NCBI GenBank assembly: GCA_009829735.1 | Contig: CM020619.1 | Location: 31,517,751-31,581,750 of the forward strand | Reading direction: 5' to 3' | From: Pyropia yezoensis | Lineage: Eukaryota; Rhodophyta; Bangiophyceae; Bangiales; Bangiaceae | Length of the DNA: 64,000 bases | Shown: in pieces, positions 4,690-56,011 of the stretch | How the letters are laid out: each line of letters starts with the position of its first letter | How positions within the stretch are numbered: the first letter of the stretch is position 1 | Notes under the pieces: generated by a model | What the model was told of the DNA's origin: nothing | The model's database searches: none | What the model saw: the letters and a program-made list of their open reading frames with translations, nothing else | Position numbers and translations under genes: made by a program

Positions 4690-5182
4690 TGTGGCAGTAT
4701 TGACCCCCAGGTAGGGGGGCAACACGTGCCATGCAAGGGGCGGCAGGCCACCAGCCTGATCCGTGCCTCCCCCTGCATTCGGGTCCGTATTCCCTAAGTT
4801 TGGGATAGTTAGCTTAGTAGTAACTCCAACTTGGATTTGAGGGTTTTCTGCATTTATCGTCTTGAATTTTCGTGTGGCCCGGTGGGCAGGTGCTGGGGTG
4901 GGAGATTCTGAGTGGCGAGATTCTGAGGGGACCCTGGGGGATAAGGGGAGGGACAGCGGGGCTTGGCCCTGCGTCCCCGTCCCGACCAAGAAACTGTTGG
5001 ACCACACACCATCTTCTTGTTTGTCAGTGGGGGGATTGCCACGCAACAGGGATAGAGTGTGTGCGACTTGCACTTCTTCCGGTTCACCCGACACGGGAGG
5101 CAGCCCTTGTACACCGCCCCAACTTGGGTGCTGTGTGTGCGAGAGGTTTTTGTCACACAGTAGAATGGGATTACCTGGCACA
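4690..5182 (+). repeat. Probable 3' LTR of element A
   Basis: The segment begins TGTGGCAG just after a purine tract and can end at TGGCACA near 5182, giving imperfect TG...CA inverted ends. It lies downstream of A's pol and antisense ORF, and base composition changes at both edges. The 5' partner lies outside the window, so neither the end point nor a target duplication can be verified. Confidence 0.4.
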
Positions 5183-5862: not shown

Positions 5863-6225
5863 TGTAGCAATATGGTTGGCCGTATTGTGACCCTAATATT
5901 AGGGGGGCTACTTCTAACCCTTAAGTTTCAATTTGATAGTTCGTACTGGTCACGGTATCTATAAATTACGGATGACCAGAGGGACTTGCATCTTGGGGTG
6001 GAGGGTAGTTGGTAGTGTCTCCGAGGGTTTATAACGAGGGGGCCGGCGGCGAATCCACCGCCGGCCATGGTAGAACAACAAACCCCTCCCATTTGGGCTC
6101 CCATCTTGGTCCCGTTGCTTGCGCTCCAAGGACAGCAACCTTGGCCTCCCGGTGACGTTGGTGCCGATCCCCCCTGGTGAGTGTTCCCTGAGAGTGGACG
6201 TGCAGCGGATGCCTATTGTGCCACA
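5863..6225 (+). repeat. 5' LTR of element C
   Basis: It is 363 bp long, starts TGTAGCA and ends TGCCACA. The 3' copy ends TGCTACA, the exact reverse complement of the start. It contains a TATA-like TTTATAA (6028-6034), and a strong hairpin follows at 6041-6066. Confidence 0.93.
6041..6066 (+). other. GC-rich hairpin in the C LTR
   Basis: A perfect 9-bp stem (GGCCGGCGG at 6041-6049, CCGCCGGCC at 6058-6066) with an 8-nt loop lies about 7 nt after the TATA-like box. It is kept in the 3' LTR (33566-33591). It may sit near the transcript start or R region. Confidence 0.6.
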
Positions 6226-6267: not shown

Positions 6268-6806
6268 TGTGGGAGATTGGGCCGGAATTCGGTACCAATA
6301 CTTTGAAGATTCGGGTCAAGTGGACCTGACCGGAAGTCGAAATTCACCCGACCCACGATGGTGAAACTTCTGACTTCTGGACGGAAATTCGACTAGGACT
6401 TCCGACATACTAGAGCAGGGTAATGCTGCTGGTATTTGTTTCTTGGGATTTTTGCACGGGAGCCAGACGGATTTCTACGCTTTGAGTTCTTTGCATGTGG
6501 AGTGATATGATTGGTTTGTTTGAGGGTTCATTTTCTGAGTGTTTTGAGGGGTTGCGTGAGCGTGTGAGGAGGGTTGATAAGGAGGGACAGCAAGGCGGGG
6601 AGGGCCCACCTTGGCTGGCCAAGCAAGAAAACACCGTCTGGCTCCGACACATCTTGTTCGTGCCTTGGTGAGTAGACCCGCTCACCACACGCAAGTTCCG
6701 TGTTCGGCTGTGTGGAGGTGCTTGCTTCCGGTGTCCCAAGTTGGGATATCGGCAATACTCCTCTTCCTTCCCTGACTCGGGGTTGGTGGATGGGAGTACT
6801 GCTACA
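6268..6806 (+). repeat. 5' LTR of element B
   Basis: It is 539 bp long, beginning TGTGGGAG and ending TGCTACA. It matches 22902-23440 along its whole length with no difference noticed, which suggests a recent insertion. Confidence 0.93.
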
Positions 6807-6808
6807 GT

Positions 6809-6824: not shown

Positions 6825-7123
6825 GAGAGGATATCGACTTAGGTACCTCCCTTGACCGGAGACGGGACCAAGTTGGCCCCTCTCCCCCTTCGGCACCGAG
6901 ACTTCCGGTGACACGATCGACTCGCCTACGTTCCGAGCGTTCGCTGGGCGACGAGGTTGGCCACCGTGAGTCTTGGTGGGAGACCCGGAGTTTCGGGAAA
7001 CCTCACCGCCTTCCTAGAGGCAGGTGGAGGGGTGGAACGTGCTCTAGGAACTCCCTAGCTGACGATCCCCGACTCTGGACACCGTTTGGTCGTTTTGGTT
7101 GACTCCACGTGACTCTTGTGGAG

Positions 7124-8887
7124 ATGGCTGGTGAGGGAGACCCCCCCATTGCGCCGAGTGTACCTGGGGAGGGGGAGCGTAGTCCTCCCCCGACGGGCGG
7201 AGTACCACCCAGGCCGGGCAGTGCGGATGTGGTGGGTCCAGAGGTTGGACCCCGACGGCGATCGGCCAGGTTCCTTCCCAGGCCGTCACCGGAAGAGACG
7301 GGCGGAGTTCGCCCTTCTCCGGTGGGAGCGCCGAGCCAGCGTCAGGCTCCGGCAACCTCTTCGGGGAGTGACGACACTCACTTCGGCATGGGACCGCCGA
7401 CCGGCAGAGGTGACGGGACAGGGAGTTCTGTACCCCGGGTTGGTGGGTCCGCGCCACGACTGGTGCCGGAAGGACCGGGTGGGAGCTCGAGTCAAGCTCC
7501 ACCTGGATCATCCGGTATCGTGGATAACTCGGTGATGACTGCCATCGCACAAGTCGTGCGAGAGGAGGTGGGGAAGGCGTTGAAGGGGAGTACCCCTCCG
7601 CCTGAACAGGCCTCGAGGCGTCAGAAGCGACGGGAGATTCGACGTACTCTCCGTCGTGAGGTGGACTCGGAGTCTGAGTCCTCTGCAAGTGGCAAGTCGG
7701 GTGAAGAAGATCTTACTCGACATGGTCGTGTGACTCACACGGACCGTCTTGGGACTAGAGTCGTCCCAGGAAAGATCGTGGTGAATAATCCATTGTTCAA
7801 GGATGTCTTCGACTGTGAGACATATGGGTTGGTCAACAAGTCGTTGACCTACTCAAATAGCCAGGCCCGTACCCTGGGCCGGCGCAAGAAACACGTTGCG
7901 CAATCCTTCGGGGTCCGTTCAGAATGGGACGGGACTCCACCCCTGAAGGTCTTCCAGTTTTTGCGGAAGTTCGCAAAATCCTGCGATGACAATGATGTCT
8001 CTGAAGCTGAAGCGTTTTTCATGCTTCAGGACTTCACCAAGGAGCCACTCCGCTCCGAGGTGATGAACGTCATGCCAAGTCGGCATGGTGGGAATCCGGG
8101 TGAGGTGACCTCCTACCTGGAGTTGGTTAATTGGATCCTTCGTCTTCACGCAGACGAGGCTTCCTTGGCTGTGCAGGTTGAAGAGTTCAACCGCGCCACC
8201 CAGAGTAAGGGTGAAGAGGAACGGGAGTTCGCTGAACGACTCCGTCAGCTGAACGTCCTCTGTGGATTCCTATATCCCCAAGGAGTCATTAAGGGACGCT
8301 TTGTGGAGGGTGTCCACCGAGCAGCTCGAGCGACTGTGCGAGAGCGTAATACTCCGACCATGACTCTGGCGGAGTTGGCACGCATCGCCCAGACTAAGGG
8401 TGATGAGTACCGCTGGCTCGTGTCTGAGCAGCGGAAGGAACGAGAGAAAGAAGTTAAGGGAATGGAAGCAAGTCGCTTCCGCAGAACTGCAAGGATGCCT
8501 TCCTACACGCGGACGTACCCTGCAGTACCTTCGTCCTCAACTCGAGAGACGGAAGGTATGGTGGCCGCCATCCCTGATAAGTCACAGGGAAAAGCGGGGC
8601 CATCGGCGTCGATGAGTGATCGGCCGTGTTGGCAGTGTTCCAAGTCGGGACACTGGGCAGCCCAATGCCCCACTCTGGACGTTCGTTTGAGAGCCCTGTT
8701 GGCTCGTATTGGGAAGCTCGGTATTCCGAGGACTGATTCGGATACCCGGCCACACACCACACGTGTGACGGCCATGACTCAACCTGAGTCAGAGGATGAG
8801 TCCACGCTTGAGAAGGGGGAAACCTCTTCCCCCAGCTCAAGTGGCAAGGATACTCCATCATCCGAGTCGGATGAGGGAAACGCCTAG
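7124..8887 (+). CDS. gag: gag of element B (left, intact reading)
   Basis: This is a capsid/nucleocapsid precursor of about 587 residues. I choose the ATG at 7124 (MAGEGDPP); the frame extends only five codons upstream. A Pro/Gly/Ser-rich N-terminus is followed by a charged segment, a retrotransposon capsid-like helical region (roughly residues 220-440, including FFMLQDFTKEPL and REFAERLRQL), and one CCHC zinc knuckle, CWQCSKSGHWAAQC, in the spacing C-x2-C-x4-H-x4-C. The ORF ends at TAG 8885-8887, four nt after a slippery heptamer that shifts ribosomes into pol. It would assemble virus-like particles and bind the element RNA. The right-hand assembly copy carries four homopolymer indels in this gene. 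Confidence 0.92.
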   Translation: MAGEGDPPIAPSVPGEGERSPPPTGGVPPRPGSADVVGPEVGPRRRSARFLPRPSPEETGGVRPSPVGAPSQRQAPATSSGSDDTHFGMGPPTGRGDGTGSSVPRVGGSAPRLVPEGPGGSSSQAPPGSSGIVDNSVMTAIAQVVREEVGKALKGSTPPPEQASRRQKRREIRRTLRREVDSESESSASGKSGEEDLTRHGRVTHTDRLGTRVVPGKIVVNNPLFKDVFDCETYGLVNKSLTYSNSQARTLGRRKKHVAQSFGVRSEWDGTPPLKVFQFLRKFAKSCDDNDVSEAEAFFMLQDFTKEPLRSEVMNVMPSRHGGNPGEVTSYLELVNWILRLHADEASLAVQVEEFNRATQSKGEEEREFAERLRQLNVLCGFLYPQGVIKGRFVEGVHRAARATVRERNTPTMTLAELARIAQTKGDEYRWLVSEQRKEREKEVKGMEASRFRRTARMPSYTRTYPAVPSSSTRETEGMVAAIPDKSQGKAGPSASMSDRPCWQCSKSGHWAAQCPTLDVRLRALLARIGKLGIPRTDSDTRPHTTRVTAMTQPESEDESTLEKGETSSPSSSGKDTPSSESDEGNA

Positions 8888-12912: not shown

Positions 12913-13040
12913 GTACAAACACATACCATGGTTCTTCAAAGATTCTCTACTAACAAAGCCGACTATGGCACAATACAAAACGAGAAGAATACCCACCACT
13001 CTTCTCACCAAGGAAAGAACAAGTCGTTCGACCGCTGACT

Positions 13041-13973: not shown

Positions 13974-14061
13974 AACGTGCTCTAGGAACTCCCTAGCTGA
14001 CGATCCCCGACTCTGGACACCGTTTGGTCGTTTTGGTTGACTCCACGTGACTCTTGTGGAG

Positions 14062-15823: not shown

Positions 15824-18800
15824 CCGCTGGGACTAAGACTGACCCAAAGGCTCCAGCGGTAATGAAGCGGGTTGCTTCACGCTCACCGACCCATGGGAGA
15901 GTGAAGGTCCTGACTCGACCTCGAGGGGTGAGACCTAGGGACAAGGCCCCTCCTCAGAAGCACGACCCGAGTCGGATTGTGTCAGTGCTGGTAGGGAGTA
16001 ACTACCAGGTCGCAGCTCGACTCTGGCTGCAGGATGGATATGAGTTTACCTCTCGTGTCATAGTCGACACAGGCTCTGCTGCCTCTCTCATTAGGCAAGA
16101 CTGATTGCCAGAGGGGACGGATGTGAGCCCCGCCGGCTCACCCGAGTGGCGTATGTTTGATGTCAATGGGGGACTCCTCCCCATTGTTGGGTCTATTGCA
16201 TTGACTGTTTGCATTGGGTTCTACCAGACGCAGGTGAACTTTGGAGTAGTCTCCAATATGTCAGTCCCCGTACTCCTGGGAACTGACTATCTGGACCTCC
16301 ATGTCCCGGCCGTCTGTGGACCGGAAGGGATAATCCGAATGCGTAATGGAGAGACTGTCCCCATATTGCGTAAAGGGAGGACTGTTTCCCCTACGACTCA
16401 TCAACCTAGGGAAAACTCTCCCAAGGGTGGAGGCTCTACGACCCATGTACGAGTATGTAAGGGTACGGTAGTCCCGCCCCGATCAAGGACCTTTGTGCGA
16501 GTACGCACACGGTTTCGAGGGAATGGACTTGTTTCCCCCGTGGACCGAGTCTATTATACTCACCAAGTGCAAGTTGCTTGGGGCCCCATGACTTGTGGGG
16601 ATGACCAAACCTGGTGGGTGGAGGTCCTCAACACGTCGGAGGAACCTCGACGACTCCCCGGAGGCATGAAGATTGCGTCGATCTCTACCTTTGAGGGGAA
16701 TGTCGTTGCTGTGACTCAACAGCAATGGAAGGATATTGGAATGGCAGGCTCTGCCGACCAATCGAGTTCATCGACGGCTAAGTCGCCGACGGTACATCGG
16801 GAGAACATCCCGGAGTGTTTACATGGACGACTGGATGAGTTAATCCAGAAGCATCACAAGTTGTGGAATGGTGACCTTGGGCTCATCAAGGCCACCGAAC
16901 ACAGAATCGTGTTGAAGCCAGGGGCTAGGCCAGTTCGCCTGAGTCCCTACCGTATGGGACCAGACTCACGGGAACTCACCCGAGAGCAGGTCCAACGGAT
17001 GCAAGACATGGGTGTCATTGAGCCTTGCTCAAGTGAGTGGGCCAGTCCCATAGTCTTGGTGCCCAAGTCAGACGGCACGATGCGGTTCTGCATCGATTAT
17101 CGTAAGCTAAACGAGCGGACGGTAAGGGATAGTTACCCCTTACCCCGTATGGACGATTGCCTTGACTCACTCGGTGAGGCACAGTACTTTTCCACGTTGG
17201 ACTGCAACGCGGGGTACTGGCAGATACCCATCCGCAAGGAGGACAGACACTTGACCACCTTCACGTGTCACTGTGGAGTTTATCAGTGTACACGGCTCCC
17301 TTTTGGGCTTTGCAATGCACCTGCGACTTTCCAGCGTGCTATTGACTTGATACTTGCCGGAGTCAAGTGGCAGATCGCCCTGGTGTATCTGGACGATATC
17401 ATTGTGTTCTCCGGGACTGCCGAAGAACACTTGTCCCACTTGGACAGAGTGTTTACCCTGTTGGGTGAAGCAGGAGTAACACTCAAACCTACGAAGTGTC
17501 ACCTCTTTAGTAATGAGGTGGAGTACCTCGGCCATATAGTCCGGCCAGGTCGCATTCTGGTCAATGAGAAGAACCTCATGGCCATCCGTCGGGCGAAGTT
17601 CCCCCAGACGCAGACACAACTCAGGAGCTTCCTGGGTATGTGTAACGTATACAGACGCTTTGTGGCGAACTATGCCAAAGTGTCTGCACCGTTGAACCAC
17701 TTGGTAAGTTCCAAGATGCCCAAGCGCTTGGATGCTCCCAAACCCCCGGAGCAAGAAGCGTTTGATAGGTTGCGAGAGCTCCTCTGCAACCCACCGGTGT
17801 TAGCGATCCCGAGACCGGGGGCTCACTACATCGTTGATGTGGACGCAAGTTACGACCAACTCGGTTGTTGCTTACTCCAACAACAGCCTTCGGGGGAGTA
17901 TTTACCCGTTGGCTATTTCAGTAAGGGACTCTCACCCGCCCAGAAGAACTATTCTGTGACGGAGGTAGAGGGTCTTGGCGTGGTATGGGCAGTCTCCATG
18001 CTACGGCCATACATCGAAGGAAGGAAGTTCCTCATTCGATGTGACCACAAGGCTTTGAAGTGGATACTCACCACTACAGCCTGTACGAATAACCGACTCA
18101 ATCGATGGCGACTCTGCCTCGCTGAGTTCGATTATGATGTTGAATATCGGCCAGGCCCGAAGCATGCGGTTGCGGACGCGTTGTCTCGCATACCGACGGA
18201 TGGGAAAGACACTTCCCCTATCCCTGAGGAACTCCCTCATGTGGCAGTGACCACTCGCTCCGGAACTGTCCTCGACCCGAGGATGCCTGGCATGGCCAAA
18301 TTATTACCCGTGTCTTTGGATGAGTTTGTCCAGGCACAGGAGAGCGACAAACTTTGTCGACGACTCAGGAAGGAGCTCGACCAGGCTCAACCGACTCGGT
18401 TCTTCCTGAATGACAACGGCATACTCTGCCGTAAGGGATATACCCAGGGGGACAAGCAAGTCGTCGTCCCCAAGGAGTTACGCAAGAGTATCCTCCAACG
18501 GGAGCACTCCTCACCGTTGGGTGGACACCCAGGGTCTACGAGGATGTATCAGACCCTACGTAAGAAGAACTATTGGCCCTCACTCGTGGCTGATGTGTAC
18601 GGATATGTAGCCGCATGCGCGACTTGCGCAAAGAATAGACTCATGGAGTCCCGGCAGACTTCTTCCATGAGACTCTTTCCTGCAACAGAGCCGTTTGCAG
18701 CGATAGCAGTGGACTTACTCGGTCCACTACCACGAACACCTGAAGGATATGAGTACCTTCTGGTGATGTGTGATCGCTTCACTAAGCTCACACGGGTATC

Positions 18801-19851
18801 CCCACTCAAGGATATCACAGCCGTGGACGTTCTGAGTGAGTTACTCGACGTCTGGGTTGCCAGTTATGGCATCCCCGACTCTATCCTTTCGGATAACGGA
18901 CCACAGTTTGCGTCCGTCCTGTATCAGGGAGTCATGAAGATGTTGGGGGTGCAGACGAACTTCGCCACCCCTTACCATCCCCAGACTAATGGGCAGGTGG
19001 AACGATTCAACAGGACTCTAGTGCGCCAGTTGCGTCACTATGTCCATGACCATGTAGTCACATGGGCTCGTTATGCGTCACTACTCGTGACAGCATACAA
19101 CTCCCAGGTACACAGTAGTACGGGAGAGGCACCGTTTGCCTTCGTCTGCCCCCGACGACTTCCGTCAGTAGCTGTGGAGCGTCTCACCCAGACTGAGGGT
19201 GAGACTTCGACTCAAACACCGAGTCAGGCGAAAGCCTCCCTACTCCAGAGACTGGAGGAGATGATACCCCTTGTCCGGGCTACTATGGAGAAGGCCCAAG
19301 CCCGTTACAAGAGGTACTTCGATGTCCGAGTCAGACATCGTCGCGATCCGCTCCGAGTTGGAGATTGGATTTATGTTAACTCCCACGACAATAAGGGAGG
19401 GAAATTGGTCTTCAAGACTCTGGGACCATATCACATCCTTAAAACGGATGGACGTCGGTTAACCATCGAGAGTGATGATGGTATCCGGACAATAAATGGG
19501 AATCACGCGACTCGCGCACCCGAACCCCCAGAGGGAGATCCCGCTTGGGAAAGGGCTTTGCAAGCATGGAAAGTCCCATCCTTGCCGACCTCTTCCAATA
19601 AGCCATTGGAGGCGGTGTTCGACAAGTTTGTCGGGCACGGATATGATGAGTCGGGGCGACTCATGCTCCGAGTCAGGTGGTTCGGGTATGGACCAACTTC
19701 CGACACATGGGAGTTTGTAGAGGACCTACCAGTAGAGAAGGTCCGTAGATACTGCCAGACTGTGGGCATATCTATACGCCGACGTAGCACTCGTACGTCG
19801 GGGGATGAAGTCCCTGCTCCAAGTCAGAGCAGAGCGGCAAGCCAACCATGA
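15811..19851 (+). CDS. pol: pol of element B (protease, RT, RNase H, integrase, chromodomain)
   Basis: Translation is expected by -1 frameshift at 15811-15817; an in-frame ATG at 15862 is the alternative. Protease has VDTGSAASLIRQD, then a TGA at 16102-16104. The remaining 1,248 codons are open. RT carries the YLDD box in LVYLDDIIVF and the usual CIDYRKLN and PLPRMDDCLDSL blocks. RNase H has VDVDASYDQLG. Integrase has the HHCC finger and the D, D, E core (AVDLLGPLP, SDNGPQFAS, YHPQTNGQVERFN). A chromodomain near the end (LMLRVRWFGYGPTSDTWEFV) suggests chromatin-guided integration. The TGA is the one visible defect: element C reads Thr there (RKDTLPD). It is either a nonsense mutation or a readthrough site. 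Confidence 0.93.
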
Positions 19852-19979
19852 GTACAAACACATACCATGGTTCTTCAAAGATTCTCTACTAACAAAGCCG
19901 ACTATGGCACAATACAAAACGAGAAGAATACCCACCACTCTTCTCACCAAGGAAAGAACAAGTCGTTCGACCGCTGACT

Positions 19980-21896
19980 CTAGCGTTCCATATGGCCACC
20001 CCCACCACTATAGGGACCGCCCGACCACGAACCCCCAGGGTCGTAGGCCGGTAGCGGAGGGGCGTAACCCACTCGGGAGGGCCCCGGAGTGGAAGTACTG
20101 GGAGGGGCCCGCCGACTCGCGGACCCATCCCCGTCGTAAGATAGATGTCCGGAGGTACTCCCTCCGTGACGCGGAAGCTGCTGCTGAGTCGACAGCAGCC
20201 GTTGGACAAACTCGTGTCCAACCGCGAGGCGAGTGACCTCAGCTGCCAATGACTGTCGCGCCGTGGCTGAGTCGCCCGACGCGAGGAAGTGACTGACACG
20301 CCGGGTGACCCAAGCCAACGTGTCAAGGGAGGCCACGAGTGAGGCCTCCACCGTGGCGTCATACATGATGGCTCCCAAGTTGGGAAGCATCTCGCCAACG
20401 CCACGCGCAATCGGCATGGGTACCGGAGTTCGGACCCGTAGCGAACCCAACGCCACGTCGGGGAAGGGCTCGAGGAACTGGAAGGGTGGAGCCTGAGTCG
20501 GCTCCACACCCCCCGAGGTCGGAGTCGCGACCCGCGGGGAAGTCGTCGGCACAGCTCGCCCGCGGCTTCGAGGGGCTCCTCGATGAGCACCACGACGAGT
20601 CGTCGCCGATGATGTCGCCCACCCAGAGCCAGGGGGCGACGTAGAGGGAGTAACCCCCTCTGCGTAGGGAAGGAAAGAGTCCCCCAACCCCTCACGCAAG
20701 AGCAGCTGTCCCTGCACCAGAGTATGGGTGACATGGACGAACTCCCGGGGTGGCTCACTCTCCAACCCCGGCTCTGGACGCTTGTTGCGGCGGAGGAAGG
20801 GTTCCAGCTGCGCCCAATCGAGTCGATTGTGCAGGGTGACCATACCCTTAAGGAGGAACGGAGCCAGGTCCCCCGCGCCCAAGGCTAACCAGTGGAAGCC
20901 AAGGGTTTCCATACCCTCCACCAGAGCCGGTGGGAGGTGCCACAGGTAACCCCGATGGACTACATCGGAGTACCAGCCCCGAGCCACCACGACCACCCAG
21001 TGCGTGGCGAGGTAGGCGAAGACCCGGTTACCCTCCGAGCTGGAGCGTAGCACGGAGCCAAAGTAGGCAACGAGGAGGGGGATCCGAGCCGGAAACCCAC
21101 AAGGTACCTCCACTGTCTCCCACCACCCTGGGAGAAAAGGGTACTGGTGCTCACGCTCCTCCAGAGGTACGTGGGTGAACTCCACCCGCGACCCGTGGAT
21201 GAGGAAGCCCGAGGAGCCCCGGAGTCGGAACTCCTCTCGCACCACGCCGTGTTGGGCGTGGGCGTCCTCTCCGCCCAGGTAGGGACGGGGAAGGGCACAC
21301 CACTCGGTAGACACAACCGCGTGGGTGTCGTCGATCTCCTTGTCGCCCGACCCCAAGGCGAGGGAGGTTGACAACGCCTGGACTTCAGGCGCGTCCGCCA
21401 GGCAGAGTAGCGCTGGTAGGTCGCAGACCACCCCATCAGGTAGAGTCACCTGGTTGGGGTACCGACGAGTCCGGCGGTACCATACGTCGGTCCGCCGTGG
21501 CTCGGGGATGATCAAGTAGACATCCTTGAGCTTGCAGTCGGGAAGCTCCCCGACTGACTTGGGAGGCGCCCAGGCTCGGGGCCCCATAGGAGGACGGGGC
21601 CGCGGCGGGAGTAGCAGCCGTGACTCAGGAAGGCGGGGGATGGGAGTCACATCCCCTTCCGCCACCGGGGTGGAAGTTCCATCCCCCGGTGGGACCACGG
21701 CCGAGGGGGCAGTAGGAGGTGATGGGGCGGGGACGGCTGAGGCGGCCGCCTCCGACCCTCGCCCGGGACGAGTCGTCTCCATGGCCGACCCCCGGCTGAG
21801 AGACTCCTCAGTCCCAAGGGCCTCCTCTCCCGTCCGTCGCTTGTCCGACAGGGACGTCGGAGACGGGGACAAAGGCCGACTCGGCTCACCCGCCAT
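19980..21896 (-). CDS. Antisense ORF of element B, unknown conserved protein
   Basis: An uninterrupted frame opposite to gag-pol ends 128 bp from the pol stop. I place the start at the ATG at 21896 (MAGEPSRPLSPSPTSL), giving 638 residues, close to element A's homologue. The frame is open further, to an ATG at 22646, but that extension is Cys/Pro/Val-rich low complexity. A central region of about 330 residues is shared with A and C: VCDLPALL, RPYLGGEDAHAQH, YFGSVL, LWHLP, VTLHNRLDW. A C-terminal stretch (SLAAEVTRLAVGHE) matches C (TEVTRVIDRRE). Prolines and polar residues dominate both ends. There is no signal peptide and no domain I recognise. Expression would need an antisense promoter, possibly in the 3' LTR. 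Confidence 0.72.
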   Translation of the reverse strand: MAGEPSRPLSPSPTSLSDKRRTGEEALGTEESLSRGSAMETTRPGRGSEAAASAVPAPSPPTAPSAVVPPGDGTSTPVAEGDVTPIPRLPESRLLLPPRPRPPMGPRAWAPPKSVGELPDCKLKDVYLIIPEPRRTDVWYRRTRRYPNQVTLPDGVVCDLPALLCLADAPEVQALSTSLALGSGDKEIDDTHAVVSTEWCALPRPYLGGEDAHAQHGVVREEFRLRGSSGFLIHGSRVEFTHVPLEEREHQYPFLPGWWETVEVPCGFPARIPLLVAYFGSVLRSSSEGNRVFAYLATHWVVVVARGWYSDVVHRGYLWHLPPALVEGMETLGFHWLALGAGDLAPFLLKGMVTLHNRLDWAQLEPFLRRNKRPEPGLESEPPREFVHVTHTLVQGQLLLREGLGDSFLPYAEGVTPSTSPPGSGWATSSATTRRGAHRGAPRSRGRAVPTTSPRVATPTSGGVEPTQAPPFQFLEPFPDVALGSLRVRTPVPMPIARGVGEMLPNLGAIMYDATVEASLVASLDTLAWVTRRVSHFLASGDSATARQSLAAEVTRLAVGHEFVQRLLSTQQQLPRHGGSTSGHLSYDGDGSASRRAPPSTSTPGPSRVGYAPPLPAYDPGGSWSGGPYSGGGGHMER

Positions 21897-22888
21897 CACG
21901 CGACCAACCTTGACCGACTCGGTGAGGTTGAGCACGGGGGGGGACACGACCCGCTCCCCCTCCGACGACAACCAACCTTGACCGACTCGGTGAGGTAGAG
22001 CAAGGGGGGGGGACACGACCCACACCCCCCACCGACAACGAAGAAGCCCGACACAAGGGGCAGCGCGGGGAAGACACAACCCCGCCAACGAGAACAAAGG
22101 GGGGGGAACACAACCCACGCCCCCACCGACAACGAAGACGCCCGACACAGGGGCGGAAGGGGGAAGACACCACCCCAACCAACGACACCAACCGCACGGC
22201 GGGAAGAGACAGACCCGCCGACGCGAGGGAGCAGCGGCGGGAAGGCACACACCCGCCCGCACACACGAAGGGGAGAGAAGACCCCGCACCGGCGGCCGAG
22301 TCCCACCGCCGGCGACCGAGTGCAACACCCCCAACTCGGGGTGCGCACACCCCTCAACCCTGACTAGAAAGGGGGGGGAAGGAGTGAGGAACACCCCGCA
22401 GAGAGCCAGCTGGGGGTGGATCGAGCTGAAGTGGGGGACACAACCCGACCCCCCGAGAGCAACCGTACCCCAACTGAAGGGGCAGGTGCAGGTCGACGTT
22501 CCGAGTGAGAACGTCGACGCCCTACTCCTCCAGTTGAGGGGCAGGGGGTGTGGCGGAGGTACGCCGACACCCAGGTTAGGGGGCTCACCCACACGTGAGT
22601 CCACCCGTGGAGCACCCTGACCAGGTGGGGGACGACTTTCCCCCACACCTGTTTCGCGTGGAGGGGGCTCCTCTACCCAGTGTCAGGGCAGAGAGCGCAC
22701 CCCACGGAGAGGGACTGCCTCTCCCGGAGGGCCCCGCCGGACGCGAGTGCAACCCCGGCGTAACCCTGGTGCACGCTAGACGCCAGCGATGCACCGTACT
22801 TTGCATCTCAACTCGGGAATTGCATCCTCCTCTCCCGGTCACTGCGACTCGCCGCTGATTGGACGTCCACCGGGACGGCTGGACTTTT
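21897..22888. other. Region between B antisense ORF and 3' LTR
   Basis: This is about 1 kb with C-rich runs and short repeated blocks (accttgaccgactcggtgagg occurs near 21908 and 21973, GACAACGAAGA-type blocks near 22035 and 22125). It may be the 5' untranslated region or promoter of the antisense gene. No convincing gene is seen. Confidence 0.5.
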
Positions 22889-22901
22889 GAGAAGGGGGAA
22901 A
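22889..22901 (+). promoter_or_regulatory. Polypurine tract of element B
   Basis: GAGAAGGGGGAAA abuts the 3' LTR start TGTGGGAG, the expected place for plus-strand priming. Confidence 0.8.
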
Positions 22902-23440
22902 TGTGGGAGATTGGGCCGGAATTCGGTACCAATACTTTGAAGATTCGGGTCAAGTGGACCTGACCGGAAGTCGAAATTCACCCGACCCACGATGGTGAAA
23001 CTTCTGACTTCTGGACGGAAATTCGACTAGGACTTCCGACATACTAGAGCAGGGTAATGCTGCTGGTATTTGTTTCTTGGGATTTTTGCACGGGAGCCAG
23101 ACGGATTTCTACGCTTTGAGTTCTTTGCATGTGGAGTGATATGATTGGTTTGTTTGAGGGTTCATTTTCTGAGTGTTTTGAGGGGTTGCGTGAGCGTGTG
23201 AGGAGGGTTGATAAGGAGGGACAGCAAGGCGGGGAGGGCCCACCTTGGCTGGCCAAGCAAGAAAACACCGTCTGGCTCCGACACATCTTGTTCGTGCCTT
23301 GGTGAGTAGACCCGCTCACCACACGCAAGTTCCGTGTTCGGCTGTGTGGAGGTGCTTGCTTCCGGTGTCCCAAGTTGGGATATCGGCAATACTCCTCTTC
23401 CTTCCCTGACTCGGGGTTGGTGGATGGGAGTACTGCTACA
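22902..23440 (+). repeat. 3' LTR of element B
   Basis: It is a 539-bp copy of 6268-6806 and is followed at once by the GTGGT target duplication. Confidence 0.93.
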
Positions 23441-23628
23441 GTGGTGACGCCGTCTTCGGCTCTGGCACACGGATAGGGATCCAGTCCGGCTCTTGTACTC
23501 GTGGTGCTGCGATCTGTTTGATTGTGTTGAGTGGTTGAGTTTGACTTCGATCTACTGTTATCCTCCCCCAACTACCCCCTCGCTCGCTTATTCGTGGTGA
23601 CTGTTAAGTCGGTTGACTGATTGTGACT
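23441..23628 (+). other. Leader of element C (continuation after B)
   Basis: It starts with the second GTGGT and leads to the gag ATG at 23629. No ORF of note. With 6226-6267 it forms the untranslated leader of C. Confidence 0.75.
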
Positions 23629-25836
23629 ATGTCTACCCAAGAGACGGGGAACGCTCAAGATGACGGATCGGCGTCGACGCCGACCCCGGAGCTGAACCCG
23701 GGAACCGGGATCGGTAACCCGATCGACAACATTGAGACGCCGATGCTCTCCGGTGCCGGATCGACGTTTGGTACGGCACGGACGGCTGGAGGCCGTGGAC
23801 CGCCGCAACTGTCCTCTGCCGACCTCACCCCGCCGCCACCTTCACCAGGGGACCCCCTGATGGCATCATTGGCTCGCGTCGAGGCCCGGTTCACCGGGCT
23901 CGACGCCCGTCAAGAGCGTACGGAGGACGCAATGGCTGTGCTGATGTCAGCACGCCATACGACGGTACCCCGTCGTGTTCCTCCCACACCGGTACGGTTC
24001 GAACCGGCCGGACTACTTTCGGAGTCCACCAGGGTCAACCCCGGTGTTGCTACTCCTGGACAACCCCCGGACACGGCGGGTTATGGATCCGACTCGTCGG
24101 CAGAGTTGGAACGTAGCCATACGGAGCGCTACGCTGGGAGCACCCAGAGCGGGCTCCGCGGACATGATCCGGCGGATAGTTACGCCGGAACAGAGTCGGC
24201 AATGAAAGGAGGCGGTACCGTCTCGCATTACCCCATCGACGAAGGGAGCCAGGCAACTCGGGTACCCGAAGCGCCGACGCCGGAAGTTCCAGCGCCACTG
24301 GTTCAAGCGATGACAGCGCAGGTTACTGCGAGCTTACTGAAGCGGATGGAGTCCGATGAGTTTACTCATCAACTGGCCAAGCGACTGGATATCCAGGACG
24401 CGGACACGGAGATTGTCAACGAAGTTTTCAGGTCGGTACTGACTCCGGAACGTTATTGCTTGGAGGACCGATCCACTACCGAATCGGAATCGATGCGTAC
24501 GACCTCTCACCGAGCGATCCGCTCTATGCAGATTCTTATAAAGGGAGTCCCTATGTTCGAGGGCCCTAACGGACGCCCGTTGGCAGTCATTGGCTTCTTG
24601 ACTAGCTTCAAGGCAGCCGCGGACTAGGCGCTCGTCAACGAGGGGCTGGCGCTGGAGATCCTCCCGTTCTTTGTTGACGAACGGGTCCGAGGCATCCTCC
24701 GCCAGGCATCCCCGATGCCCGGAATGAGGGTCGCAGCCCCCCCCATGGATTACCGTGGGATATTGAAGGTGCTGCTTAGCAGCTACCTCAGTGAGGACAA
24801 GTGCGAAGACCACTATCGGGCCCTTCGCACTGCCACCGCCAAGTCCTGGGAGGATGGAGAGATGTTTGGACGCCGGATCCAAGAGCTCGACTACGAGCAG
24901 GGGAAGCTCCTCGGTGAAGGGGCACTACGGGCCATCCTGTTCGCAGGAGTACACAGCTATGTGCGGATATCCGCACGGGGAGCCAATACGGCTCGGACGA
25001 ACTTCAGTTGACTGATGCATATGTGCAAGTCCCTGGGGGACGCCTACCGGGTGCTACACCCGGAAAGCGCCTTGGCCCCGAAGCCCAAGGGTGAGGGAGG
25101 CAAGCACAGTCTTACCCCGGTATCGAGGCAGGAGAAGGTGGAACGTAAGGCCGCACCAGTACTGGTGGCGACCGAACATACCCCTACCGGTGAGGGTGAA
25201 CTTCTAGTCGACCAACAGGGCCACCTGTTGCTACCGGCGACGCCGGTGATTGATGAGTATAATACGGTAGCGTACATCGCCCCGGCTGGGACCCAGTTCC
25301 AGGTTAACGAGGGAGCGGGACGGCGCGTCCCGTATGTGCGGACCACGGGGTATGCCCCGGTTACGGGTAACCCCCACCAACCCCTGCCGACATGGGCAAT
25401 GCGTACGGAGGCACCTCCGCACATCGCTGGTAGAACCAACCGGCTGTGGGAGTCCATGTTCGGGTTGGCACCGGGACCCAAGGCCTACCAAGGGGCAGGC
25501 ACTCGGGCACCCGAGGCAGGCAACCGGACATATGGAGCCAACCCGACGCGTACGCCCGGGACGGCTGGCACGTCCGGGTGTACGTTGTGCGGAGACCCCC
25601 AACACTGGGTGTCCTCATGCCCGCTCATCCCGGAGGAGTCTCGACGGGCAGCGGCGCAACGCAAGGCATCCGTTGGGGGGTACCCCGCCCGAGGCCCGGC
25701 ACCGGGTAGGCAGCAAGCTCCAGGAGGAGTACTGTCCGTCGAGGAGGCACCTCCTCTCCGGATATCCCGGAGGACAGTACCCGGCCGAGCACGGGAAGCG
25801 AGTAAGAGGAAGGACGACACGGGATCGCTGGGGTAA
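23629..25836 (+). pseudogene. gag: gag of element C with two nonsense codons
   Basis: A single frame from ATG 23629 (MSTQETGNAQDD) to TAA 25834-25836 is broken by TAG 24625-24627 and TGA 25009-25011. Reading across them gives one continuous gag-like protein of about 735 codons: a Pro/Thr-rich N-terminus, a capsid-like middle, and one CCHC knuckle, CTLCGDPQHWVSSC, near the C-terminus. Both stops lie in the capsid-like part, so no full product can form without readthrough. The pol frame is +1 relative to gag, unlike B, where it is -1. Confidence 0.85.
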
Positions 25837-28800
25837 CCCTAACAAGCCACCCCGGACTGCCGCGGGGAGAGCCCCACGGAGAGCGCGGTTGAGCCGACGC
25901 CGCATCAACCCCCGGGTGCACCTTCAGGCCCCGACGACACGGCGTGAGGGGATTGATGACCAACCACTAATGTTGGGAGGAAAGGACGGGAAGCCCCGTC
26001 ACATAAAACCAGACAAGGGCCCAGTTCAGGATGCCCGAGCCACATCGGATATCGGTGTAGGCCACGTACTGTTCACCTTGGAGAACTTCAAGGTATCAGC
26101 CACACTGGGGGTTGGCCCCCAGTCGACCCGATCGTGTTACCCCGTACTGGATACAGGGGCTGGACCTAACCTGATCCGGAAGGATACCCTCCCGGACAAG
26201 TGGCTCCCGCGAGTCAGAGGTGCTTGGGGACCCACGATCAAGCATGCGAATGGTCGTCTCATTCGTACGACCGCAGCGATGTCGCTGCAGGTCACCATCG
26301 AGGAGCTCACTACGGAAGTTGACATCCTGGTGTGTGAGATTCTATCTGTGCCCTGCGTACTGGGGTGCACTTTCATCAACGTTCACGTTGGTGCAATCCG
26401 GCCGGGCCGGAGGACCGTCGAGCTGCAAGAGGCCGACGGGACGAAGAGAGGACAGACAGCTATCGTCAGGTACCTGACGCTACACGGGAGCCACGTTAAC
26501 GTGGCTGAGGTATACGCCAGTGTAGAACCGAAGACACTCCGGCTGGCCAAGCCGACTCGCTTTGAGCCGTTATCGGAGACCGTCCTCCCGGTTAACTGTG
26601 ACCTCGCAGGCATCTGCAGAGTCCAGTCCAACCTACGAACCTACAAGCGCCATGGGTTCACCATGGCTAACGGTATCGTAGACCTTCGAGCGGGGGGGTC
26701 ATCACTGCTCGTGATGGCGAACTATCGCCGTAATGCAGTCACCCTCCCGACAGGAGCTATCCTCGGGATTGCCGAGCTCTACGAAGGGGACATCCTTACC
26801 CCTGACAAGGAAGGTCAAGTGGAACTACTTGAGGTGCTGGCGGTCGCCGAGACCACCGAGCGGCAGCAACCCGATGACGGGAAGCCTAACCTATCGGCAG
26901 CTCCGGCGGACATGCCGCAAAAGGACCAAGAAGCCGTGAAGGCACTGGCCGAGGCTGACCTCGACCACCTTCCCCCTTCGGTAGCTGAAGAAGTACGACG
27001 GATGCTAAGAAAGCATGACGTCATGTGGACCGGCGGGGCGCTGGGTACCATTGGGGCAACCCAACACCGTATAGACCTGGTACCAGATGCTCGACCAGCG
27101 CGGTCGCAACCGCATCGCGCGGGACCGATGCAACGAGAGATCGTTGATGGAGAAGTGAAGAGGATGAGCGAAGCTCACTTGATCCGACCCTCGATGTCGG
27201 AGTGGGGCGCCCCAGGCGTTATTGTACCGAAGAAGGATCAAACCCCTCGATTCTGCATCGATTATCGACGCCTCAACTTGGTTACCAAGAAAGACTCCTA
27301 CCCTTTACCAAGGATGGACGAGTGCATCGACTCGCTGGGGGAGGCCACAGTGTTTACTACTATCGACTGCAATGCCGGGTACTGGCAGATCCCAGTTGCG
27401 GAAGAGGATATCCCCAAGACGGCGTGCGTCTGTCACAGTGGCGTGTACGAGTTCCTAAGGATGCCCTTCGGATTGTCCAACGCCCCCGCCACATTCCAGC
27501 GGGCCATCGACATTATACTGTCGGGAGTCAAGTGGCGTAACTGCCTGGTATACTTGAACGACGTCATCGTCTTCTCGCGTAACATGGATGACCATGTGCA
27601 ACATGTCGACGAGTTACTCACCCTCTTGCGGAACGCCGGGGTAACCCTGCGCCTCAAGAAGTGCGCCTTCTTCCAGCAGACAGTCGAGTATCTGGGTCAC
27701 CAGATCACACCAGGTAAACTGGGAGTGCTCGAAGCTTATACCCGGGCACTCCGGGATGCGCGATACCCAACCACCCAGACACAGCTGAAAAGCTTCCTGG
27801 GGATGTGCAACGTATACCGACGGTTCGTCAAGGACTTCGCTCGTATAGCCAAACCGTTAACGGTTCTGACGAGCAGCGCCTTGCCAAAGGTACTTCAACC
27901 TCCCTCGCCCAGCCAGGGAGAGGCATTTGAGCTGCTCAAGCAAGCGCTACTGGCCCCACCCGTGCTTGCGTTGCCGCATAGACGCGGGACCTTCGTCATC
28001 GACGTCGATGCCTGCGACACCCAAGTGGGATGCACCCTGTTACACGGTGAGACCATCATCGGTACCGATAGTGCTATCCCGGACCTACACCCGGTAGGCT
28101 ACTTCAGCCGGACACTCAACCCGGCTGAGCGTATCTATAGTGCCACCGAGCGCGAGTGCCTCGGAGTCATATGGGCAGTGCAACTGCTCCGGCCATACCT
28201 GGAAGGTTCCAGGTTCATCGTAAGGTCCGACAACGAACCTTTACGATGCCTTCTCAACCTTGGTGACAAGGATTCCAACAGCCACGGTCGGCTAGCCCGG
28301 TGGAGGCTGACGATGGCCGAGCACGACTACCGGACCATATTTAAGGCCGGCTCCACCCATCATCTGGGGGACGCACTGTCGCGACTCGATACACCAAGCG
28401 GGGATACCCGACAGGTGGACGAAGACATCCCGGTTGTACCGGTGTGCATGGTGGGTAATGCTACCCAAGGTATGGTTGACCATACCATGGCACACCTTGC
28501 GTGCCCATTGACCCTCGTGGACTTCCGCGAGGCACAGCCCAATGACAATGACTGTAAACGCCATCGTGCTAACCTCCTGGCCGGCACGGCCGGCATCTTC
28601 TCCGAGAATGAGAATGGCCTCATATACCGGCGGGCACCCGCCGATGGACGACATCAGGTCGTGGTTCCCGTGTCCTTGCGGCAAGCCGTCATGGAGCGAG
28701 AACACGGGAACCCCACAGCCGGACACCCGGGGGGTTCACGCATGTTCGCGGCAATGCGAAGGTTCTTCTACTGGCCAGCAATGGCCGTCGACATAATCGA

Positions 28801-29978
28801 CCACGTGCGGGGATGCCACCCGTGTGCACGGAATCGTATGAGTCTTCATAGGCGGGCATCCGCTATGAAACTGTTCCCCCGGATGGCCCCAACCAGCAAG
28901 TCACTATCGACATACTCGGGCCGCTTCCGGTAACGGAAGAAGGGAACAGGTACATTCTGTTCATGTCGGATCGCTTTATAAGCTGTCACGGGCAGTAGCA
29001 ATCCCGAACGATACGGCCTACACCATCATGAACGCAGTGGTTGACCACTGGATCAGTGCTTACGGAGTAATGAAGCAACTCCTCTCCGATAACGGAGCAA
29101 ACCTTACGTCAGCACTCTGCACTAAGGTCCTGGGCATGTTCGGTATCGAACCCCGTCGGGCATCCGACTACCACCCGCAATCCAACGGGCAGGTGGAGCG
29201 GTTCAACCGCACCATCGTCAAGATGCTCCAATGCTATGTGGCGCAGCACACGAAGACGTGGGACAGGCTCCTGTCCGTCCTGACCCTGGCATACAATGCC
29301 AGGCCCCACCGAAGTACCAGCATTGCCCCACTGGAAAGGGTCATGCCGATGGGCGTCGGTAACCTGACGCAGCCACCGGGCAGGTGCACTCGGTACGACA
29401 TACCGAAGGGCCGACCGGCCGAACGGATCCACTTAGCTTGGTTGTCCAGGCTATCTTGGATGATCCCAAAGCTCAGGGGTGCCCTTGACCGAACACAACT
29501 GGGATACAAGAAGAACTTTGACGCCCGACTACGGGTACGCAACGCAACTCTGGTAACAGGTGACTGGGTTTATATCAGACACAAGAAGTTCCGCGGGAAC
29601 AAGCTTATGCAACCGGTCAAATGACCGTACCAGATCTTACACAGAGATGATCACTCTGTCATCCTGCACTCCGATACGGAGATACAACGCATCAACCTCA
29701 ATGATGTGACACCTGCTCCGAAGCCGGAACAGCCTCAGCCGGTACCGGCTGGGTTGCTACATGAAGCTCTTACAACCCACCGGTCAGATGACCCGGTGGG
29801 ACCGGATGGGATTCCATACCAAGTAGAGAGCGTGGTCGGACACACCGATCCAGACCTACCAGGACCCTGGTACGTCAAGGTGATGTGGGTCGGATACGAC
29901 TCACCGACCTGGGAACAGGCGGCAAATATACCCCGCCAACTCCTCATGCCTTACATGAGGCGACGACGCCTACTGTAA
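25835..29978 (+). pseudogene. pol: pol of element C, inactivated
   Basis: The pol frame begins by +1 shift at or before the gag stop (GGG TAA C) and stays open to 28933. It holds protease (VLDTGAGPNLIRKD), RT, RNase H (VIDVDACDTQVGC) and the integrase HHCC finger. The RT box reads YLND (27551-27562): AAC replaces the first catalytic Asp codon. Two frameshifts follow (between about 28900 and 28925, and near 28980) around the first integrase Asp (TIDILGPLP). The core resumes with LLSDNGANL and YHPQSNGQVERFN, then a TGA at 29622-29624, then a chromodomain (YVKVMWVGYDSPTWEQA) ending at 29978. All sites are defects relative to B, so the enzyme set is dead. Confidence 0.92.
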
Positions 29979-30429
29979 CAACCCAACCGACACCGACTTC
30001 GGCTGTTGGGGGGTGAGGCTTATACCTACTAAGTAGGGCGTCACATGGATTGGGCAAGACTTAGGTTCACTAAGTTGGAGCGGACTTAGGCAAACTAAGT
30101 AAGCTACCGACTTTTACAAGTTTACTTGAAGGGGATGACTAACTCGGATAGTTTCAAAGTAACCTGAGGCTTACACCAAGGTAAACCTTCATCCATGGGG
30201 CAAGTGACGTACCAAGGAAGGTTGACCTTCACGAGTATTAACCAACCAGGATGGGTTGGGGGGCGCGGGAAAGAACCGAGGCAGGCCACGGCTATGTCAG
30301 ACGGGGTACTCCCCAATAGCAGGCATCCGGATCATGCAAACGCCCCAGCGGGGGATGAGTTTATACTCACTACTACCCGGCCACCATAAGGGTCGCCGGG
30401 TCCCTCTCCCTCACAAACAATAGCACTCC
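29979..30429. other. Spacer between pol and antisense ORF of element C
   Basis: This is 451 bp between two convergent stop codons, with short repeats of ACTAAGT/ACTTAGG type near 30025-30110. It could hold the polyadenylation signal of the antisense transcript. No gene seen. Confidence 0.5.
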
Positions 30430-32799
30430 TCAGTGGGTAGACCCACTGCCCGAGGGAGGCCACTCGCGCGTAAGCGCGTACACCTCCATGCTCCACCGGT
30501 CGGCAATCTCACGACGGTCAATCACCCGAGTTACCTCGGTGCATAGCTGGACGAGGGTTCTGCGGCCAGCCTCCACGTCCGCCAGAGCGGACTGGAGGCG
30601 GTCCAGCACGCCACCAAAGCAACGCGCGGACCCAACCAGCGCAGCACCTGGAGGGATATCCCCCCAGCTAACAGAGAGACCCTCCCGCATCGCGCGGGCA
30701 ATAAAGGCGTCAACGCCCTCATAACATAGATGAGGACCCCCGTCAGGCATGACAGGGGCGGAAGGTGACACTGGCGCAGCCAGAGAAGCCACAGGAGCCG
30801 ACACGGCTACCACCGGAGCCGGTGGCGCCTGATACGAGGCCCGGTAGGACCCTACTGAAGTGGCTCCACCGTAAACCCGGCGGGGCTCCGCCCGACGACG
30901 GGACACCTCACGCTCCCCACCCGCAGAGCCCCACTCTCGCGGACGACGGCCAACCGCCACCGGTATCGGGTTACCGAACCACGGGGCGAGAATCTGAAGA
31001 GGGTCATGGATAACCATGGGAATACCCAGGTCAGGAACAGCCTCGGGGGACGCCCACCCCCGGCAATTGGGCTCACCCGGCTGAGTACGCCGGATACGCA
31101 ACGAGTGACGAGGCAAGGGGGAAGCCCCAGCCTGCGGGTCCCGGTACGGGGGAAGGGCCAACACCCCTGCCCAGTCCACGGCATCGTGAACAGCCAGCAG
31201 AGCCTCGAACTTCCAGGCCAACCCGGTCTTGGCAGCGATCATGTCCACGCCCAGCTGCCCGATGTGCCGACGGACACCCGTCGGAAGATGAAACAGGCGC
31301 CCCTGCCGGCGGACGGACAGCAAGAAGGAGAAAGCCTGCCCGAGGGTAACCTCAAGGGTGAAGGTCCCCTGCAACGGGTGGATCGGCCGGGAGGCCAATA
31401 CACTCCCGAAGTACCGGAGGCAGGAGCCGGTGTCAAACCGGAAAGCAGGGGCGAGCTCCCACCCCTCCTGCCACAGGGGCGGGCGCACGGCAGTGTACAC
31501 AGGTGCACGACCGTTACCGGTCTGCAACGCACACGTTATATCGGTGCGGAACGCATCCACCATGACACCATGGTTGCGTCGCCAGCTCGACGCCGACTTC
31601 AACCCCGCCATGGGCGGGTACGGAGCCGTCAAATTCAGGTACGGGGATACCCCCGGGAAGTACTCAAACCCGGGATACCGGCCGGTATCGCCCACCGTCT
31701 CCCCAAACGCCACCGGCTCCGCCGCCGACGCCATCCCCCGAGCACTAGCCGGGTAGTCAACCCCCTGCGGCAACGCGGGGGCAATCAAGTCGCATATCCC
31801 GAAGGCGGAGTCGGGGTAGACCTCACCCCGCCCCATCCGGGTGCGCCAGAGCTGCGCATGCCGGTCGTCCGGCTGGCTCATGATCCAATGATGCTCCACC
31901 CGGACCGCGTTCGGCTGGTTGACCAGCCGCACCAGCTCCCACTCCCAACTCGGGTCCACCTTGACGCGCCGGGGGGTCTCTCCAGGAAGACGCGGCTGGT
32001 GGAAGTCCACCCGCATCCGCCCAGCGGAGTCCATCGACTCTTTCACAGTCATGCCTCGAACCCGAGCCACCAAGTCGGACATCGACATGGCGGGTTGACC
32101 TGCCGCAGAGGCGACGCCGCCACCAAACGGGGCAACCCGGGCAGGACCAGGAAGAATCGGGGGTGCCGGGGGGAGGCCCACCGGCAGATGGGCCGGCACC
32201 GGAGGCGCACGGGGCCGAGGAGGAAGAAGAAGGGCGGGCGCCCGCCCGGAGTAACTCCCGGAGTCCACTGCCATCGGGGTAGACACTTCCTGACCACCAA
32301 GCGTCCGCGGCACCGCGGGCAGAGCATCGCCGCCACCCGGGCCCGACGCGGGCACCACGGGGGCAGCAGGGGTAGACCCATTACCCGCCGCCGCGGACAC
32401 ACCAACCGGGAGAGCACCCGCGCCGTCTTGACCCGCCGTCCCGGCCGGGGTGCCGCCACGACCGCCCGACACACCAGCTGCGCCGTCTTGAGGTAGAGCC
32501 GCGCCGGCACCGGCGACAGGAGCCATCCGGGCCGCCGGAGGAGTACGGGTAGAGGCAGCCGCTACACGCGGTTGCCCGCCACCCGACGGAGCCGTCGTGC
32601 CGCTGCACACGGACGACAATCCGCCCGGCGCACCTTCCGGGGCCACACGAACGGTCACCCGGTCGCCTTCGTCCTCCGACAAGCTCTCCAAGAAGCACTC
32701 GGCGGCGGTGGAAGAGACGGGAACGTCGTCCACCATCACCTCTTCCCCCTCCTCAAGCAGGAGGTCGTCCTCGCCCCCGGGTACCTGGGGGTCCGACAT
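30430..32799 (-). CDS. Antisense ORF of element C, unknown conserved protein
   Basis: An open frame of 789 codons runs opposite to gag-pol, from ATG 32799 (MSDPQVPGGEDDLLLEEGEE) to the stop at 30430; the frame itself extends 34 codons further upstream. The N-terminal third is acidic, then Ala/Pro/Gly-rich. The middle matches the B protein: LWRTRMGRGEVYP with VWYRRTRRYP, ICDL with VCDL, SPYL with RPYL, RYFGSVL with AYFGSVL, LFHLP with LWHLP, VHDAVDW with LHNRLDW. The C-terminus has LVQLCTEVTRVIDRRE, as in B. It is open although gag and pol of this element are broken at several places. Function unknown. A 496-codon frame on the other strand (31006-32496) has no comparable support. Confidence 0.72.
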   Translation of the reverse strand: MSDPQVPGGEDDLLLEEGEEVMVDDVPVSSTAAECFLESLSEDEGDRVTVRVAPEGAPGGLSSVCSGTTAPSGGGQPRVAAASTRTPPAARMAPVAGAGAALPQDGAAGVSGGRGGTPAGTAGQDGAGALPVGVSAAAGNGSTPAAPVVPASGPGGGDALPAVPRTLGGQEVSTPMAVDSGSYSGRAPALLLPPRPRAPPVPAHLPVGLPPAPPILPGPARVAPFGGGVASAAGQPAMSMSDLVARVRGMTVKESMDSAGRMRVDFHQPRLPGETPRRVKVDPSWEWELVRLVNQPNAVRVEHHWIMSQPDDRHAQLWRTRMGRGEVYPDSAFGICDLIAPALPQGVDYPASARGMASAAEPVAFGETVGDTGRYPGFEYFPGVSPYLNLTAPYPPMAGLKSASSWRRNHGVMVDAFRTDITCALQTGNGRAPVYTAVRPPLWQEGWELAPAFRFDTGSCLRYFGSVLASRPIHPLQGTFTLEVTLGQAFSFLLSVRRQGRLFHLPTGVRRHIGQLGVDMIAAKTGLAWKFEALLAVHDAVDWAGVLALPPYRDPQAGASPLPRHSLRIRRTQPGEPNCRGWASPEAVPDLGIPMVIHDPLQILAPWFGNPIPVAVGRRPREWGSAGGEREVSRRRAEPRRVYGGATSVGSYRASYQAPPAPVVAVSAPVASLAAPVSPSAPVMPDGGPHLCYEGVDAFIARAMREGLSVSWGDIPPGAALVGSARCFGGVLDRLQSALADVEAGRRTLVQLCTEVTRVIDRREIADRWSMEVYALTREWPPSGSGSTH

Positions 32800-33387: not shown

Positions 33388-33750
33388 TGTAGCAATATGG
33401 TTGGCCGTATTGTGACCCTAATATTAAGGGGGCTACTTCTAACCCTTAACTTTCAATTTGAGAGTTCGTACTGGTCACGGTATCTATAAGTTACGTATGA
33501 CCAGAGGGACTTGCATCTTGGGGTGGAGGGTAGTTAGTAGTGTCTCCGAGGATTTATAACGAGGGGGCCGGCGGCGAATCCACCGCCGGCCATGGTAGAA
33601 CAACAAACCCCTCCCATTTGGGCTCCCATCTTGGTCCCGCGGCTTGCGCTCCAAGGACAGCAACCTTGGCCTCCCGGTGACGTTGGTGCCGATCCCCCCT
33701 GGTGAGTGTTCCCTGAGAGTGGACGTGCAGCGGATGCCTATTGTGCTACA
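33388..33750 (+). repeat. 3' LTR of element C
   Basis: A 363-bp copy of 5863-6225 with exact inverted ends TGTAGCA and TGCTACA, about ten substitutions from the 5' copy. It is followed by CAGCC and keeps the hairpin at 33566-33591. Confidence 0.93.

Positions 33751-54385: not shown

Positions 54386-56011
<1,626 letters not shown>

Follow-up and report, generated by a model that had tools for sequence, protein, structure and literature searches.

A putative antisense protein gene under purifying selection, shared by three Ty3/gypsy families of the red alga Pyropia yezoensis

Do the long open reading frames (ORFs) that face gag-pol in three Ty3/gypsy elements of Pyropia yezoensis encode a protein and, if so, what might that protein do? 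The elements, here called A, B and C, lie in the window (the whole stretch of DNA that was analysed, 64,000 nucleotides). An earlier note had placed one such ORF on the minus strand between pol and the 3' LTR of each element, at 2407..4350 in A, 19980..21896 in B and 30430..32799 in C. This position held for all three, and the coordinates and lengths given were correct, with B open over 638 codons and C over 789 codons. For A, the claim of a long ORF stood in part: an open frame of 724 residues occurs in many A copies, and the copy in the window (648 codons including the stop) carries two in-frame stops.

Element C is complete (5863-33750), with plus-strand LTRs of 363 bp at 5863..6225 and 33388..33750 that differ at 10 positions, CAGCC standing before the first and after the second as a 5-bp target-site duplication. 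Element B (6268-23440) lies nested some 40 bases inside the C leader. Its plus-strand LTRs of 539 bp (6268..6806 and 22902..23440) are identical and are bracketed by GTGGT, a 5-bp duplication inside element C. Both LTR pairs have TG..CA ends. Element A is present as its 3' part only, with a plus-strand 3' LTR at 4690..5158 (start taken from the TGTGGCA motif, end approximate); the LTR in A copies has inverted TG..CA ends. Pol lies on the plus strand at 16..2190 in A (3' part; RNase H and integrase), at 16105..19851 in B (RT, RNase H and integrase) and at 25334..29978 in C, where it is broken and continues in another frame after 28933, with a stop codon ending at 29978. A Pfam scan, which covered the 3' part of pol in A and C pol up to the frame break, found RVT_1, RT_RNaseH and Integrase_H2C2 in the Ty3/gypsy order in B and C, and rve in B and A. 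The end of B pol also resembles a chromodomain at a sub-threshold level (PF00385, E 0.0064, 16.8 bits against a cut-off of 25.1); none was found in the 3' part of A pol. The plus-strand gag of B (7109..8887) has a zinc knuckle that falls narrowly short of the Pfam cut-off; the one in C is weaker.

In each element gag-pol and the antisense ORF converge without overlap. By their coordinates, the ORF is separated from the pol stop by 216 bp in A, 128 bp in B and 451 bp in C, and from the 3' LTR by 339, 1005 and 588 bp, respectively. The B spacer between the antisense ATG and the 3' LTR (21897..22901, minus strand) is a candidate antisense promoter or leader. Within this spacer, a 63-bp G/C-rich unit is repeated in direct orientation at 21997-22153; tandem repeats are common in this part of Retand elements too (PMC11963269). 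Elsewhere in element B, 7036-13473 is repeated as 13974-20413 (99.86% identity, 6.4 kb) around 500 N (13474-13973), which probably reflects overlapping contigs left unmerged in the assembly rather than a real tandem copy.

Long frames arise in GC-rich DNA, and one alternative to a gene is that the frame follows from composition, or that a sense gene or an antisense RNA in the same place is what is constrained. We evaluated the first part of this in the stretches from pol to the LTR of B and C, which hold stop-free runs of 900 and 825 codons, respectively. Among 300 order-2 Markov resamples of each stretch, the longest runs reached 766 codons for B and 622 for C, so that the observed runs exceed all of the composition-matched ones. 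The frames are also retained across the genome. Searches in which the best candidates were scored, giving counts that are lower bounds biased towards good copies, placed the B protein at 70 or more sites (59 without a stop), a 459-residue piece of the A protein at 92 or more (71 without a stop) and the C protein at 57 or more (30 without a stop). Most of the best-scoring copies have thus conserved an antisense ORF in the stretch from pol to the 3' LTR, the trait of the class termed aORF-3R. When 30 loci each of A and B were fetched, 15 of the A loci and all 30 of the B loci were open from ATG to stop; the start ATG was retained at 25 and 30 loci, respectively, and the stop codon at every locus of both. 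The other five frames across the same region contain 5 to 28 stops per copy. One A-type copy (L049) stands apart, differing from the remaining 29 at a median of 311 bases, and is possibly old or rearranged.

We then counted synonymous and nonsynonymous differences between pairs of real copies in all six frames, with no consensus built, and compared them with the expectation when the same changes fall at random positions with matching neighbour bases. For A, the ratio of nonsynonymous to synonymous differences in the antisense frame was 0.35 of expectation among 29 of the 30 copies and 0.41 with all 30; the copy left out of the set of 29 was L049 (median of 311 differences, against 47-127 in the others). 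Among 30 near-identical B copies (median 7 bases different) the ratio was 0.53, among four diverged B copies (six pairs) 0.33, and among six C copies 0.48. Five of the C copies had been fetched as stop-free, which makes their stop count uninformative and leaves the codon pattern valid. Two rows of B were excluded for having N in their pol flank. Bootstrapping over pairs gave ranges of 0.31-0.38 for A (14 pairs a round), 0.40-0.82 for near-identical B (15 pairs), 0.26-0.47 for diverged B (2 pairs) and 0.42-0.54 for C (3 pairs).

The LTR and spacer served as a flanking control for A and B. Here the six frames gave ratios of 0.91-1.11 in A and 0.88-1.27 in B, and across the B spacer and most of the LTR none of the six frames was clearly constrained. 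The A value is restricted to the element and replaces an earlier 0.94-1.05 that had included unaligned host flank. On the same scale, the pol end gave 0.66 in A and 0.35 in B. A ratio near 1, which the earlier note had named as the outcome that would speak against a gene, was found in the adjoining non-coding sequence of A and B, whereas the antisense frames lie at 0.33-0.53. These ratios probably understate the constraint acting during replication, since many of the differences will have arisen after insertion, when copies drift.

Consistent with this, changes follow the antisense codons. Distances at codon positions 1, 2 and 3 were 0.031, 0.022 and 0.074 in A (29 copies), 0.036, 0.016 and 0.062 in B (five copies) and 0.050, 0.045 and 0.101 in C (six copies); in all three families position 3 is the most changed and position 2 the least. 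In A, differences that create or abolish an antisense-frame stop amounted to 14.5, half of the 29.1 expected. Overall divergence in A points the other way, since the whole ORF is as diverged as its LTR and spacer (mean pairwise 0.042 versus 0.040), unlike the B ORF, which is less diverged than its own (0.0037 versus 0.0088).

One further frame requires attention, namely the sense frame that shares its third positions with the antisense frame. With a ratio of 0.45-0.66, it is the sole other frame clearly below 1, and it might be taken to indicate a constrained sense gene. Set directly against each other, this echo and the antisense frame gave 0.50 and 0.45 in C and 0.40 and 0.35 in diverged B, with overlapping bootstrap ranges; the ratio alone does not clearly choose between the two frames in these sets. 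The echo frame, however, carries a mean of 23 stops in A, 15 in B and 14-22 in C. Changes that are synonymous in one of the two frames only are more discriminating. Those synonymous in the antisense frame alone were in excess in all four sets (observed versus expected, A 103 versus 65.5; near-identical B 7 versus 5.6; diverged B 19 versus 8.4; C 43 versus 23.3), whereas those synonymous in the echo alone were not (A 42 versus 63.6; near-identical B 1 versus 4.3; diverged B 6 versus 7.0; C 16 versus 18.2). As far as sequences can tell, these results together point to a translated protein. Equal conservation of the sense strand, the other observation that the earlier note had set against a gene, is therefore not what we find: the echo lies below 1, but it is interrupted by many stops and the discriminating changes favour the antisense frame.

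A 496-residue sense ORF at 31006-32496 also overlaps the C antisense ORF, which could be read in favour of a sense gene. Every sense frame, however, holds 5-22 stops in each of the six C copies, so this ORF looks accidental. A chance frame or a sense-strand gene was thus rejected on the codon pattern, the frame-specific changes, the stops and the Markov resamples, and we regard the absence of a gene here as highly improbable. Together these data make it very probable that the antisense frame is a protein-coding gene of about 640-790 codons that was under purifying selection while the families multiplied.

The earlier note had further held the three proteins to be related, and here BLASTP, profile-profile comparison and shuffling agree. 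By BLASTP, A and B share 36% identity over 289 residues (E 3e-37), and C matches A with an E value of 1e-5 and B with 0.004. A profile of three B members, two A members and one member of D, a fourth and broken relative (L069) with 49.6% identity to B over 486 columns, matched a profile of five C members with a probability of 90% and an E value of 1.6e-6 across 212 columns. The cores of A and B scored 91 and 97 against C, beating all 1000 local shuffles (maxima 62 and 79); with full-length shuffles, the score was reached in 0 of 800 for A-C and 3 of 800 for B-C. Ungapped tblastx placed the antisense frame best between A and B, at 123 bits against 61 bits for the matching sense frames; the antisense matches of A-C and B-C did not stand out in this test. 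The shared motif blocks that had been listed for the family were borne out in part: PYL, FGSV, (W/F)HLP and H..(D/E)W occur in all three window copies, and CDL and EVTR in B and C only. FGSV varies among copies outside the window. We conclude that homology of the predicted A and B proteins is certain, and that C is supported as a distant relative of both.

Antisense protein identity is 31-36% for A-B and 20-26% for A-C and B-C, and pol identity is 63% for B-A and 42% for B-C. The order of relatedness is thus the same for both genes, which fits inheritance from a common ancestor of the elements; these comparisons show the putative antisense gene to be common to the three families by descent. 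No confirmed relative was found in a collection of viral contigs searched with the antisense profiles and pol, or in a collection of prokaryote genomes searched with the A/B/D profile, and neither collection says much about other algae.

The proteins resemble no named domain, as the earlier note had stated. Eleven member proteins or pieces searched against Pfam at E values up to 10 gave only sub-threshold, chance hits, all of them in C, and no enzyme domain. NCBIfam gave no match, PHROGs one match at chance level, and a sequence profile search of the PDB chance matches only (best E 0.06). AlphaFold2 models from alignments of 3 and 22 rows had mean pLDDT values of 36.5 and 38.6 with no confident fold, and the best Foldseek match in the PDB (E 0.19) is meaningless given the quality of the models. 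Proline makes up 11-12% of the A, B and C proteins. On the Kyte-Doolittle scale even the most hydrophobic segments of 19 residues reach a mean of only 1.4-1.5, giving no clear membrane span. The A protein has a pI of 9.2 and an arginine-rich tail (arginine/serine-rich, residues ~534-610 in copy L034) that would fit a nuclear or nucleic-acid-binding role. This tail is absent from B and C, where the protein as a whole is not basic (pI 6.7 and 6.6), and a nucleic-acid-binding tail common to the family is accordingly not supported.

Accessory ORFs that run antisense in the stretch from pol to the 3' LTR are a kind already known in plants and reported for the fungal element Boty. One close parallel is the aORF-3R of plant Retand, Grande and RIRE2 elements, which, like the Pyropia ORF, lies antisense between pol and the 3' LTR and is kept in most copies. 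According to PMC11963269, 97% of plant Retand clusters have TRP28 (PF04195) in their antisense ORFs. The Pyropia proteins, from a red alga, differ in having no PF04195: the domain was absent from the 11 proteins and pieces at E values up to 10, in line with the earlier note's failure to recognise any similarity to the Retand ORFs, and PF04195 had no match in the P. yezoensis genome at the same limit, in a search whose positive controls included no plant genome. Retand elements are also non-chromoviruses by description, in contrast to the chromodomain-like, sub-threshold end of B pol. Boty from Botrytis, likened here by description only, is a fungal LTR element with an antisense extra ORF (PMC7264820, in part). 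HTLV-1 HBZ, again likened by description only, is a nuclear minus-strand protein gene (PMC11963269, in part) and lies within a retrovirus, unlike the ORF of the Pyropia LTR elements; in HTLV, the 3' LTR contains an antisense promoter (PMC7264820, in part). The env-like ORF of plant Athila and Bagy2 shares the position between pol and the 3' LTR but is in sense orientation (PMC7264820, in part), opposite to the Pyropia ORF, which also shows no clear membrane span.

Against this background the Pyropia protein family looks new and unrelated to those described, to judge from its sequences, and sits in a red alga. In the literature found, covered through titles and the starts of abstracts with few papers in full, no antisense gene was reported in red-algal elements, and a word search of two Bangiales genome papers (one of them the main text of PMC7423979) returned no description of an 'antisense' gene. 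That this is a new Ty3/gypsy protein family of red algae, unrelated to TRP28 and with an antisense origin independent of plants and fungi, is a stronger claim that we consider rather doubtful. If it is true, minus-strand accessory genes would be a recurrent solution in the Metaviridae; on this reading the product, a regulator or an antagonist of silencing, would act in trans and also mobilise copies from which the gene has been lost.

These data allow us to propose a model in which each element would be a two-gene unit, with gag-pol on one strand and an accessory gene facing it on the other. The accessory gene starts 339-1005 bp before the 3' LTR and ends 128-451 bp from the pol stop; its transcription would begin at a promoter within either the spacer or the 3' LTR. 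Its product may be an element-specific regulator that acts in trans within the nucleus, where it would target expression of the element itself or the element's nucleic acid. We prefer a regulator by analogy with Grande gene23/TRP28, for which such a role has been proposed, given the same position, orientation and retention across copies. The maize Grande gene23 product is reported to be nuclear and the gene to have a promoter of its own (PMC7264820 and PMC11963269, in part), and TRP28 protein is predicted to be nuclear and DNA-binding (PMC11963269, in part); neither of these two reviews, in the sections consulted, settles where the antisense ORFs of LTR elements come from or what they do. Taken by itself, the nuclear trans-acting role is tentative, with a probability somewhat below even. 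The model as a whole, a coding gene together with a nuclear-regulator role, is one that we hold to be reasonably probable.

Three other readings, which overlap in part, would give the product a different task or source. It may counter host silencing of the element by small RNAs or chromatin. The protein diverges faster than pol (36% versus 63% identity between A and B), as might one facing a changing host, and the spread of B has been very recent, the two LTRs of the window copy agreeing at 539 of 539 bases; yet fast divergence fits many accessory proteins, and neither motif nor fold suggests such a function. We consider an anti-silencing factor unlikely. A second structural protein beside gag, acting in the particle or in packaging, is compatible with the size, the proline content and a predicted helical centre. 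The helical prediction is, however, of low confidence, B already has a zinc-knuckle gag on its sense strand (just sub-threshold) and C a weaker one, and a structural protein encoded on the opposite strand would be unusual, making this reading improbable. Finally, whatever its present role, the gene could have begun as a host gene that the elements' ancestor captured. Its GC content at codon positions 1, 2 and 3 (0.68-0.73, 0.55-0.59 and 0.69-0.72) is higher than that of pol (0.58-0.64, 0.43-0.49 and 0.58-0.69), but at the third position it falls well below the 0.86 of two presumed host genes, and no host copy appeared among the best 57 to 150 candidates of each search, where a diverged single-copy relative would be hidden. 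Such a capture also has a low probability in our estimation.

The regulator model can be set against copies that lack most of the gene. A B-type deletion of antisense residues ~261-630 has its junction at ten places, spread over three contigs (for example C2:32219440 and C1:10972582), compared with 90 places intact at that position. One of these places was read (L070) and the other nine were identified by match lengths and by a junction pattern that tolerated up to 2 mismatches; not all need be independent insertions. The junction falls at a GTGGTGGG repeat, of the template-switch type, and reads GGGAG at five of the ten places and GGGGG at the other five, which may reflect one deletion event or two. 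The deleted piece has no GT..AG ends on either strand at the printed junction, and retroposed splicing was rejected as its origin. An apparent fifth family (51% identity to D) proved to be B with this deletion. Ten such places on three contigs suggest that elements lacking most of the gene have been able to spread. Such copies would then either receive the antisense protein in trans or, in some copies or rounds, do without it.

Natural copies that have or lack the gene make the role testable. Selection on a minus-strand protein is seen here directly from sequence, in three diverged families against a matched null, and in a lineage far removed from flowering plants. Repeats make up 48% of the P. 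yezoensis genome and are mostly LTR elements (PMC7423979, main text). Given this share, and given that the word 'antisense' does not occur in that main text, repeat masking may be hiding a real gene family with hundreds of copies.

The window also contains a 2344-bp inverted repeat with arms at 53959-56302 and 56792-59135, which are 100% complementary and separated by a 489-bp spacer, and which represent either a real palindromic duplication or an assembly artefact. Each arm holds one long ORF, whose product we take to be threonine synthase-like.
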